7,590 bases of DNA from Halovenus sp. (GTDB taxonomy: Archaea; Halobacteriota; Halobacteria; Halobacteriales; Haloarculaceae): the NCBI GenBank assembly GCA_003551265.1, contig PUMG01000117.1, positions 1 through 7,590 on the forward strand. The letters are read 5' to 3'. How positions within the stretch are numbered: the first letter of the stretch is position 1; every line of letters begins with the position of its first letter. Positions 1,612 through 3,220 of the stretch are shown here, one piece after another. The translations under genes were made by a program, and so were the position numbers. The notes under the pieces were generated by a model. The model ran no database searches. It saw only the letters and a list, made by a program, of their open reading frames with translations, and had not been told where the DNA came from.

Positions 1612-1797
1612 ATGAGCAGCCTCCTCATCCGCATCGCTGGCGCAGCGTTTTTCCTCCTCGGGTCGGCGTGGATTGTGGCCGGGTTCTACGTCGACGAGAT
1701 GCTCATCTGGCTCTCCGGTGGACTCGCTGCTGCTGCAGGGATGGGTCTGCTGGCGGTTGCGCCACGACTGAACGAGCGCAGTTCCCACAGCGAGTGA
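1612..1797 (+). CDS. 61-residue two-helix membrane protein, unknown function
   Basis: Starting at ATG 1612 the product is 61 residues. A hydrophobic helix near residues 5-25 (IRIAGAAFFLLGSAWIVAG) and a second near 30-50 (LIWLSGGLAAAAGMGLLAVA) are joined by a short FYVDEM turn, and the tail RLNERSSHSE is hydrophilic. This is the form of many small haloarchaeal membrane proteins; no family or function is recognised. The frame stays open upstream to 1480, but that extension is polar, His/Ser/Thr-rich and lies in the divergent intergenic region, so it is left out. The gene ends 42 bases before the Trp leader ORF of trpS. The TATA-like box of trpS is inside that gap, so the two genes are probably transcribed separately. 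Confidence 0.65.
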   Translation: MSSLLIRIAGAAFFLLGSAWIVAGFYVDEMLIWLSGGLAAAAGMGLLAVAPRLNERSSHSE

Positions 1798-1810
1798 AGA
1801 AGAACAACGG

Positions 1811-1816
1811 TTAAGT
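1811..1816 (+). promoter_or_regulatory. TATA-like box for the trpS leader transcript
   Basis: TTAAGT preceded by AACGG (a BRE-like position). Its centre is about 26 bases upstream of the leader ATG at 1840. Archaeal transcription usually starts about 25-27 bases downstream of the TATA centre, so the transcript would begin at or next to that ATG, giving a leaderless mRNA as is common in haloarchaea. Position is seen; the function is inferred. Confidence 0.5.
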
Positions 1817-1832
1817 GAACGTACTGTTTCAC
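1815..1832 (+). repeat. Inverted repeat between TATA box and start of the trpS leader
   Basis: GTGAA (1815-1819) and TTCAC (1828-1832) are exact reverse complements separated by 8 bases. The site overlaps the downstream edge of the TATA-like box and the expected start of transcription, a usual place for a repressor operator. The short arms make a chance match possible. Confidence 0.3.
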
Positions 1833-1839
1833 TGAGGAC

Positions 1840-1908
1840 ATGGTGTCCACTCCGACAGACAGCTGGCGCTGGTGTGTCTCTTCGGGAGTGGACAGTACCG
1901 CGTGCTGA
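1840..1908 (+). CDS. Putative Trp leader peptide upstream of trpS (22 residues, Trp-Arg-Trp)
   Basis: ATG at 1840 opens a 22-codon ORF ending in TGA at 1906-1908. The peptide begins MVSTPTDSWRWCVSS and has Trp at residues 9 and 11, codons TGG at 1864-1866 and 1870-1872. Trp is normally the rarest residue, so two in 22, one residue apart and directly upstream of the tryptophanyl-tRNA synthetase gene, is striking. A TATA-like box at 1811-1816 would start the mRNA at this ATG; a weak GAGG (1834-1837) also precedes it. The Trp codons lie in the loop of a hairpin (1844-1894), and the second one begins a 16-base segment complementary to 1992-2007. The likely job is sensing charged tRNA-Trp by ribosome stalling. 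It is too short for routine gene callers. Translation is not proved by sequence alone. Confidence 0.6.
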   Translation: MVSTPTDSWRWCVSSGVDSTAC

Positions 1909-2019
1909 GGGCGTCGGGCCTCACTCGTCGTTCTCGATGCGGTGCTCACTCACTTTCTCGCGGCGCAGCATCGTTCGGACAGACCGTTTCACCGGAGAGA
2001 CACACCACGAGAGTGTGTC
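1844..2019 (+). promoter_or_regulatory. Attenuator-like trpS leader RNA with mutually exclusive pairings
   Basis: Three main pairings can be read. (C) Bases 1844-1853 (TGTCCACTCC) pair perfectly with 1885-1894, with AGACA 1857-1861 pairing to TGTCT 1875-1879 inside; the Trp codons are in its loop. (A) Bases 1870-1885, starting at the second TGG, pair with 1992-2007: 16 pairs with one G-U. (B) GACACAC 1999-2005 pairs with GTGTGTC 2013-2019 (7-base loop), ending 16 bases before the trpS ATG. A excludes both B and C. Minor hairpins are 1906-1910/1919-1923, at the leader stop codon, and CGATGC 1935-1940/GCATCG 1968-1973. A ribosome stalled at the Trp codons would cover the 5' arm of A and free the B region. 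No run of four or more T is present, so control of translation or factor-dependent termination fits better than a simple oligo-U terminator. Confidence 0.5.
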
Positions 2020-2035
2020 GACAACACAGCAACCG

Positions 2036-3220
2036 ATGCCAGCCAACACACCGTTCACCGTTACACCGTACAGCGTCGAAGGACGTATCGACTACCAACA
2101 GCTCCTCGAAGAGTTTGGAGCGGACGAACTGACCGACGAACAGCGAAAGCGATTCCCCGGACCCGGACATCCACTCGTTCGTCGGCAGATTTTCTACGCC
2201 CACCGGGAACTCGACAGGATTCTCGATGCAGTCGCCGCCGGTGAGCAACACGCACTCGTCACTGGCCGTGGTCCGTCGGGACCGATGCACATCGGCCACA
2301 TCATCCCCTTCTATTTCGCCCGATATCTGCAACAACACGCCGGTACTGACGTGTACATTCCACTCTCGGACGACGAGAAGTACCTCCTGAAAGAGCAGTC
2401 ACCGGCGTCGATTAGCGAACACACGCGTGCGAACCTCCTGGATATCCTTGCGGTCGGGTTCGACCCGGAGCGGACGCGAATCGTCGTCGACAGCGCCGAT
2501 GCAGACGTCGTCTATCCGATTGCGACGGTGCTAAGTAAGGAGATTACACAGGCGACAGTCGATGCAACCTACGGCGACCCGCCGAACGTCGGACTGTCGT
2601 TCTATCCGGCGATACAGGCGACTCACCTGCTGTTGCCGCAGTTCGTCGATGGACGACAGCCCACGCTCGTGCCGATTGCAGTCGACCAGGACCCCCACGT
2701 CCGGGTCTGTCGGGACGTGGCAGCCAAAGAGCGATACGACGTCGAGAAACCGGGTGCATTGCTCTCGAAGTTTCTCCCCGGTCTCGGCGGGCCGGGGAAG
2801 ATGAGTTCTTCGGACGACCTGCCGAGCATCCTGCTTTCTGACGACAGAGAGACCGTCCACGAGAAGATACAGAGACACGCCTACTCCGGCGGTCGGACGA
2901 GCGTCACCGAACACCGCAAAAAAGGCGGCAATCCTGAAATAGACGTTGCGTATCTGCTGCTGTATTACTTCTTCGAGGACGACGACGAAACCGTCGAGCG
3001 AATCGCCAGCGAGTACCGCAACGGGTCGTTGCTGAGTGGCGAACTCAAGGCACGCGCTGCAGAGAAGGTCGCTGACTTTCTCGAACGCCACCAGCAGCGA
3101 CGACATGCGCTGGGACTGCTCACCGACGAACTCGAAGCGTACCGACTGACACCTGAAGAACGCACACGGGCGCTCGGCCGTGCTGGATATCCTGAACGGT
3201 CGCTGTGTCGAACAACCTGA
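2036..3220 (+). CDS. trpS: Tryptophanyl-tRNA synthetase (archaeal/eukaryotic type)
   Basis: This 394-residue class I synthetase charges tRNA-Trp with tryptophan using ATP in the cytoplasm. GRGPSGPMHIGH (about residues 77-88) holds the HIGH motif, IAVDQDPHVRVCRDVA (214-229) is the diagnostic TrpRS substrate-binding segment, and GPGKMSSSD (253-260) is the KMSKS loop. The opening FTVTPYSVEGRIDYQQLLEEFG matches the N-terminus usual for archaeal TrpRS. ATG 2036 is chosen because this conserved start follows it directly; the frame extends upstream to 1874, but that part is the leader. The protein contains no Trp residue, so it could be made when Trp is scarce. No Shine-Dalgarno site precedes the start. 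Haloarchaea often carry two trpS paralogues; this may be the auxiliary, regulated one, which one window cannot decide. Confidence 0.95.
   Translation: MPANTPFTVTPYSVEGRIDYQQLLEEFGADELTDEQRKRFPGPGHPLVRRQIFYAHRELDRILDAVAAGEQHALVTGRGPSGPMHIGHIIPFYFARYLQQHAGTDVYIPLSDDEKYLLKEQSPASISEHTRANLLDILAVGFDPERTRIVVDSADADVVYPIATVLSKEITQATVDATYGDPPNVGLSFYPAIQATHLLLPQFVDGRQPTLVPIAVDQDPHVRVCRDVAAKERYDVEKPGALLSKFLPGLGGPGKMSSSDDLPSILLSDDRETVHEKIQRHAYSGGRTSVTEHRKKGGNPEIDVAYLLLYYFFEDDDETVERIASEYRNGSLLSGELKARAAEKVADFLERHQQRRHALGLLTDELEAYRLTPEERTRALGRAGYPERSLCRTT

Follow-up and report, generated by a model that had tools for sequence, protein, structure and literature searches.

Upstream of the auxiliary tryptophanyl-tRNA synthetase gene (trpS) of a Halovenus species lies a short leader open reading frame (ORF) with paired tryptophan codons, and it is likely that this leader senses charged tRNA-Trp by ribosome stalling and thereby controls the synthetase gene. 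The sensing of a stall is strongly supported by the comparison of related sequences, while the route leading from the stall to trpS is one that we infer. The elements that emerge from the comparison are a promoter at a fixed distance, a Trp-x-Trp (W-x-W) motif in the leader peptide, an early helix (P1), a second helix (P2) enclosing a hairpin (M), and a U-rich motif at a fixed spacing. An earlier note on this DNA had proposed that stalling at the Trp codons controls trpS. Conservation, promoter, covarying helices, and the switching of targets and codons support that reading, in which the stall itself and the change of structure are postulated. The finding goes beyond what was claimed there, in that the leader-peptide RNA is a conserved one in archaea.

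In bacteria, ribosome-mediated attenuation is textbook knowledge, and it requires tight coupling of transcription and translation. Archaea have a eukaryote-like RNA polymerase, with termination involving FttA (aCPSF1). If the present reading, with mRNAs that begin at the leader AUG, is true, archaea couple transcription and translation tightly enough for computing with both, and the leader would allow coupling, as well as FttA-dependent termination, to be assayed cleanly in vivo. As far as the open-licence PMC literature searched extends, control by a Trp leader was previously described only in bacteria, and no case of attenuation of amino-acid genes in archaea was found there in the titles and abstract openings of the matches listed. 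An article that discusses transcription-translation coupling in archaea has no occurrence of "attenuat" (PMC8116511).

The window, that is the whole stretch of 7,590 nucleotides analyzed here, carries the leader ORF at positions 1840-1908 of the forward strand, on which all features described below are also found. The ORF opens with an ATG at 1840-1842, closes with a TGA at 1906-1908, and its 22 codons translate as MVSTPTDSWRWCVSSGVDSTAC. It is predicted to begin a leaderless mRNA and is probably translated. The putative regulatory codons, Trp-Arg-Trp, occupy 1864-1872, with TGG at 1864-1866 and 1870-1872, and correspond to Trp at codons 9 and 11. A gap of 127 nt (1909-2035) separates the leader stop codon from the auxiliary trpS (2036-3220, 394 aa; Pfam tRNA-synt_1b, 5.6e-29), which is the candidate regulated gene. 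Versions 59-77% identical to it are present in 17 of 39 other genomes (18 of 40 if its own genome, at 100%, is added). Its own genome and others also carry a housekeeping trpS, about 33-37% identical to the auxiliary TrpRS. The sequence bears out what the earlier note described, namely the ORF with its two Trp codons, the TATA-like box, and the untranslated stretch of 127 nt. Conserved helices lie inside this stretch. These helices had been missed, as had the perfect pairing between the ORF start (1844-1853) and a later part of the same ORF (1885-1894).

The TATA-like box, TTAAGT, is located at 1811-1816, 29 to 24 nt before the leader ATG. Its assignment is reinforced by the relatives, in which an A/T peak keeps a constant spacing to the leader start. 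In 72 leaders the A/T content at positions -30 to -26 is 0.74, 0.76, 0.86, 0.89, and 0.69, with the maximum of 0.89 at -27. A second A/T peak spans -36 to -34 from the leader start in these 72 leaders, where a BRE-like CGAAAC is visible by eye; we take these elements of the leader promoter to be the TATA box and the BRE. Given this constant spacing of the promoter elements, the mRNA probably begins at the leader AUG or adjoining it. With the promoter ahead of the leader, one transcript would carry both leader and gene, as in an attenuator.

Published data on Haloferax volcanii bear on the same point. A dRNA-seq survey lists, in its Table 2, a 23-aa uORF within the 150-250 nt 5'-UTR of HVO_A0127, annotated as tryptophan--tRNA ligase, and the entry has no mark for an additional transcription start site at the gene (PMC4983044). 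This entry agrees with, and thus supports, a transcript start at the leader AUG. The trpS leader of Haloferax prahovense also has 23 aa, with a pI of 5.43 (5.4 in the table) and a mass of 2624.8 (2743 in the table); the two sequences are not identical, and we infer their equivalence (PMC4983044). Among 15 Haloferax genomes, five match the RNA model R1 described below, one of them weakly (5e-4).

The W-x-W leader was followed in a set of named loci consisting of the best 80 of 154 haloarchaeal trpS relatives. A short W-x-W ORF is found within 300 nt upstream at 68 of the 80 trpS loci vs. 10 of 434 control ORFs, the controls being the remaining ORFs of 200 aa or more at these loci, some of them spurious. 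When the search is widened to 450 nt, such an ORF is present at 73 of the 80 orthologous loci. Among the first 17 related loci (L002-L018), again with 300 nt searched, 15 carry it; of the two misses, L008 is truncated by a contig end and in L012 the leader is located farther upstream. As to the seven of the 80 loci devoid of W-x-W, inspection by eye shows that L045 is truncated, that the Trp codons of L095 are adjacent, and that L054 has no Trp. A paralogous, partly plasmid-borne trpS group (L046, L047, L049, and L051), also inspected by eye, has leaders with a GTG start and a single Trp. With the start codon picked blind to Trp, TGG occurs 151 times in frame vs. 19 times out of frame in 72 leaders. 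The residue between the paired Trp is Arg in 62 cases, Gln in 8, His in 4, Pro in 2, and Cys in 1. A leader with cognate codons thus stands before the cognate gene, as in an attenuator. The earlier note had regarded loss of the ORF or of its Trp codons in close relatives as a reason to abandon the idea; both turn out to be conserved across haloarchaea.

To judge from the aligned leaders, what is conserved behind the Trp codons is the RNA and not the protein. The reading frame drifts there while the nucleotides are kept, as illustrated by Halorussus, which has ERTVS where others have ADSV. The leaders of L044 and L053 stop directly after the Trp codons. Finally, the GGRAGYGGACAGT stretch is kept in differing reading frames, and some leaders terminate ahead of it.

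The conserved RNA can be described as a scaffold of helices. P1 joins the ORF start to the GGRAGYGGACAGT stretch and, in the window, pairs arm A (1844-1853) with arm B (1885-1894) over 10 perfect base pairs. P2 joins the bases after GGRAGYGGACAGT to a CCGCGRTGCT sequence about 50 nt on, around hairpin M. In the window, its arm B2 (1894-1903) forms 10 of 10 pairs with arm C1 (1937-1946), which ends in an invariant GCT(C). Hairpin M (1915-1927) has 77.7% and 84.3% of its cells paired in the alignments, and in many relatives the leader stop codon sits in its loop. Next to C1 comes the U-rich motif (1947-1960; consensus CMCTCGCTTTCTCG), which is conserved and is a candidate termination site. A competing hairpin, P3, would pair a 5' arm at 1935-1945 with the 3' arm D at 1963-1973 (82% complementary). 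As P2 and P3 both use C1, they would be mutually exclusive.

Evidence for this scaffold comes from alignment A2, which contains 76 of 81 sequences; L045 (contig end), L054 and L059 (no anchor), and L053 and L107 (excluded by choice) are out. The spacing from B2 to GCTC is 49-53 nt in 76 of the 76 leaders. Changes on both sides of a pair are seen for 8 of 11 pairs in P1 and 7 of 11 in P2 (76 sequences). Taken together, P1, P2, and M have 87.2% of cells paired vs. 39-47% in slid controls, 18 of their 26 pairs have changed on both sides, and none of 500 shuffles equals them on any of five measures. In an arm-swap test with 52 non-redundant leaders (24 of the 76 were dropped as near-duplicates), 0 of 2000 permutations were as good for P1, P2, or the C1:D pairing. 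The same test on the 52 leaders gave no signal for A:D, B2:D, A:C, and B:C, and direct B:C pairing as an antiterminator was discarded on this negative result.

Covariation between C1 and D peaks 28-54 nt downstream of C1, with z from -3.2 to -3.6 and edges at -2.2 and -2.3. Elsewhere, candidate partners of C1 give z from 0.3 to -1.7, the value of -1.7 being reached by windows farther downstream. A partner close behind the U-rich motif (offsets 12-36; z -0.5 to -1.0) was tried and found unsupported. The covariation of P3 is modest, and relatedness could explain part of it. The U-rich motif has a mean T fraction of 0.41 vs. 0.16 between B2 and C; it is not a strong T run, with TTT or similar in 56 of 76 leaders. 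A terminator scan of window positions 1780-2100 detected no intrinsic terminator of the bacterial type, and in the relatives checked by eye for such a terminator only the U-rich motif follows P2. The window also has extra strong pairings near the trpS start, 1870-1885 with 1992-2007 and 1999-2005 with 2013-2019. The long pairing and the 1999-2019 hairpin are outside the covarying scaffold and were omitted from the model for that reason.

In the switch that we propose, scarcity of Trp would stall the ribosome at the Trp codons, where it would cover arm A; P1 would not form and P2 would. In 71 leaders, 21-28 nt (median 24) separate the last Trp codon from B2, so that a stalled ribosome would cover arm A and leave B2 free. 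P2 would then keep C1 from D. With ample Trp, the ribosome would reach the stop codon, P2 would be blocked or would yield, and C1 and D would pair to form P3. P3 would present the U-rich motif in its loop; the prediction is that transcription then stops ahead of trpS, either intrinsically or through FttA (aCPSF1). Low Trp would thus lead to more TrpRS. In this model P2 would be the "on" structure, following the logic of a classical attenuator. The termination output through P2 and P3, taken by itself, is put forward tentatively, as a proposal that falls somewhat short of being probable.

Ensemble folding was carried out for 50 leaders at standard conditions, not in molar KCl, with an assumed ribosome footprint of -18 to +12 around the codon masked. 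With the ribosome at the first Trp codon, P1, P2, and P3 are predicted at 0.06, 0.58, and 0.22; with the ribosome at the stop codon, at 0.59, 0.11, and 0.42; and with no ribosome, at 0.68, 0.42, and 0.28. In the window, P2 falls from 0.99 with the stalled ribosome to 0.00 with the ribosome at the stop codon, whereas P3 rises from 0.00 to 0.80. P1 is at 0.00 in the full-length fold of the window even without a ribosome, and it is below 0.1 without a ribosome in 13 of the 50 leaders, window included. The minimum-energy fold of the window has P2 together with the long 1870-1885/1992-2007 pairing instead of P1, and it surpasses shuffled sequences only mildly (z -1.92), 9 of 200 of them being as good. 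P1 may form first, during transcription. The stop codons range from before arm B (L044 and the L046 group) to inside hairpin M. Because they vary in place, the half of the model that depends on the stop position does not fit all members.

Archaeal termination follows rules other than those of the bacterial type (PMC7237163; PMC11616081). The intergenic terminators of Hfx. volcanii consist of T stretches that end at a C (PMC7237163). For an FttA-dependent terminator, the RNA needs to be U-rich at 30-36 nt behind its 3' end (PMC11616081). In the leader, this would place the RNA polymerase just past D. The same stall sensor could also act on the translation of trpS, via access to the start site or re-initiation, rather than on termination. 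This is a real rival, since the predicted exposure of the U-rich motif shifts only from 0.44 with a stalled ribosome to 0.54 with the ribosome at the stop codon (0.49 when free), and we rate it as possible, if rather unlikely. The best C:D duplex ends at most 45 nt from the trpS start in 73 of 76 leaders, starts being rule-assigned (61 nt in the window), and the textbook terminator is absent from the window. Access to the trpS start region is predicted to be slightly higher when the ribosome is stalled (0.56) than otherwise (0.51); the smallness of this difference counts against control of translation. So do the position of the conserved U-rich motif tens of bases before the start, the variable distance from D to the start, and the nature of the Hfx. 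volcanii terminators, T stretches ending at C (PMC7237163).

The wiring could also be the opposite of that proposed. The stacked P1 and P2 would then make up a terminator-like hairpin before the U-rich motif, and a stalled ribosome would break P1 and so prevent the hairpin. P1 and P2 do abut, both are conserved, and the U-rich motif comes a few bases after P2. However, a stalled ribosome would leave B2 free, the prediction for P2 under the stall is an increase rather than a decrease, and P3 is possible only once the U-rich motif has been transcribed. We therefore find this arrangement unlikely.

That the RNA is T-box-like or binds Trp, with the ORF being incidental, is highly improbable. The gene downstream is a synthetase, and a GGACAGTACCGCG stretch in the window resembles the bacterial T-box sequence, which we counted in favor of the idea. 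Against it, no Rfam match is obtained up to E 1, most relatives have CGG in place of the TGG in GGAGTGGAC, the conservation of TGG is mainly in frame, and leaders with Ser codons (see below) keep the scaffold and change the codons. A T-box or Trp riboswitch was ruled out as a candidate on the absence of an Rfam match to E 1, the non-conserved candidate UGG, and the in-frame bias of TGG. Such uORFs appear among the small proteins tabulated by Babski et al. (PMC4983044). That the leader peptide works as a small protein in its own right, or that its conservation was carried over from an older coding sequence, is nevertheless very hard to credit, as it is mainly W-x-W that is kept as protein, while other residues, length, and frame vary and bases covary.

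Returning to stall-controlled attenuation, the classical kind is represented by the ribosome-mediated transcription attenuators of the bacterial trp, phe, and his type, such as the trp operon leader. Like these, the haloarchaeal leaders have a short ORF with cognate codons, an early helix holding the ORF start, putative alternative helices downstream, and a cognate biosynthesis or synthetase gene behind. Unlike them, they occur in a haloarchaeal host and have the leader ORF at the 5' end of the transcript, which is predicted to be leaderless. Moreover, the haloarchaeal P1 and P2 abut without shared bases (one base is shared in the window), and exclusivity would be between P2 and P3. Finally, there is no terminator-like hairpin with a T tail in the window, and the haloarchaeal U-rich motif is found in the P3 loop. 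In Streptomyces, attenuators were predicted before trpS2 of Streptomyces avermitilis and before leuS (PMC1262725). As in haloarchaea, an attenuator thus stands before a synthetase gene, and trpS2 is a numbered second copy. The Streptomyces attenuators are nevertheless classical, having terminator hairpins and poly-U (trp operons, leuS); this is another RNA in another domain of life (PMC1262725).

Beyond trpS, we lean slightly toward a general haloarchaeal form of attenuation. Leader peptides encoded on leaderless mRNAs would, by way of stalled archaeal ribosomes, let the supply of Trp, Ser, or Phe act on the cognate synthetases and on trpDF, via refolding of the RNA and premature termination at U-rich sites. 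The scaffold would be modular; it would have moved between genes, swapped its codons, and been recruited before acetyltransferase and exporter genes as a stress sensor. Its distribution was followed with two RNA models, R1, built from 52 sequences including the window, and R2, a scaffold model without the Trp codons. R1 matches 1840-1965 with 2.1e-22, the window being among the sequences that built it. In the order as a whole, R1 matches 178 of 392 genomes, belonging to 55 of 95 genera. R2 matches 177 of 392 genomes which, by the tables and among the matches listed, are the R1 genomes except G035. Since R2 finds nearly the same genomes, the link with Trp genes is not built in by the Trp codons of R1, and the scaffold appears, among the matches listed, to be mostly a Trp device.

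The genes behind the scaffold were classified at 140 loci, namely the 30 best R1 matches, 30 further ones, and 80 picked by hand; these include second and weak matches, overlap with the 80 named loci, and are a part of all matches. According to tblastn, 93 of the 140 precede an auxiliary trpS, 29 a housekeeping trpS, and 18 neither. Because it stands before both kinds, the leader RNA appears to have been exchanged between strongly diverged trpS copies. By an automatic rule, W-x-W is found in 80 of the 93 auxiliary leaders and 21 of the 29 housekeeping ones; for one of the auxiliary leaders, L158, the ORF flagged is a different one. The 13 auxiliary misses under this rule comprise seven with no ORF, two with a wrong ORF, three with one Trp, and one with adjacent Trp; of the eight housekeeping leaders without W-x-W, seven carry RRWH.

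Other targets and codons are also found. At L244, a MLSAFRSWSWRWYRSGKRTVS leader precedes trpD and a cut-off trpF, from the Trp biosynthesis operon (NCBIfam: trpD, 396 bits, over the cut-off; trpF piece, 95.8 bits, under the cut-off). At L181 and L183, a MESTSRSRSQSSFWEVDS leader with Ser codons precedes serS, identified by 434 bits (over the cut-off) at L181 and by a gene start resembling that of L181 at L183. In these Ser leaders P1 remains intact through paired changes, GTCTAC with GTAGAC. By eye, L180 has a Ser-type leader before a broken serS.

A leader rich in Phe codons precedes pheS. Because Table 2 of the Hfx. volcanii survey lists a 26-aa uORF before pheS (PMC4983044), the pheS upstream regions of 26 named haloarchaeal genomes (L251-L276) were searched. 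A leader whose peptide ends in GFGFFF or something close to it is present at 23 of the 26 loci (for example L254, L262, and L269) and at none of L266, L255, and L256. A TATA-like box of its own stands at -29 to -26, and its early helix covaries, with 0 of 2000 permutations as good (n = 23). It is a class different from the Trp scaffold. The pheS leader of Hfx. prahovense has 26 aa, a pI of 5.94 (5.9 in the table), and a mass of 2850.2 (2772 in the table) (PMC4983044). The uORFs listed before HVO_A0127 and pheS in Hfx. volcanii thus have the same lengths and pI as the Hfx. prahovense leaders; no regulation is proposed for them in that survey, and "attenuat" is absent from its main text (PMC4983044).

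In a test of cognate codons, W-x-W leaders were found at 25 of 26 trpS, a set chosen for carrying the auxiliary gene, and Phe-rich leaders at 22 of 26 pheS under a stricter rule. Tyr-rich leaders were found at 0 of 27 tyrS and His-rich leaders at 0 of 26 hisS. Non-cognate matches, counted in a fixed wide window, were two Phe and two His at trpS, one W-x-W at pheS, one W-x-W at tyrS, and two W-x-W and one Phe at hisS.

Five loci with weak R1 matches (L191-L195; E about 1e-4 to 8e-4) were judged to be chance matches and discarded, and the copy at L189 looks decayed. The scaffold is also seen before GNAT-like acetyltransferase genes (L176, L177, L178, L190, and L146), a methyltransferase-like gene (L154 and L175), and an MsbA-like exporter gene (L173). 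Of these, L146, L154, L173, and L176 were scanned and gave family matches below the curated cut-offs only; the other four were assigned by eye. At such genes the scaffold is possibly a sensor of other translation stress, and the eight leaders have 0-2 Trp codons, with no W-x-W.
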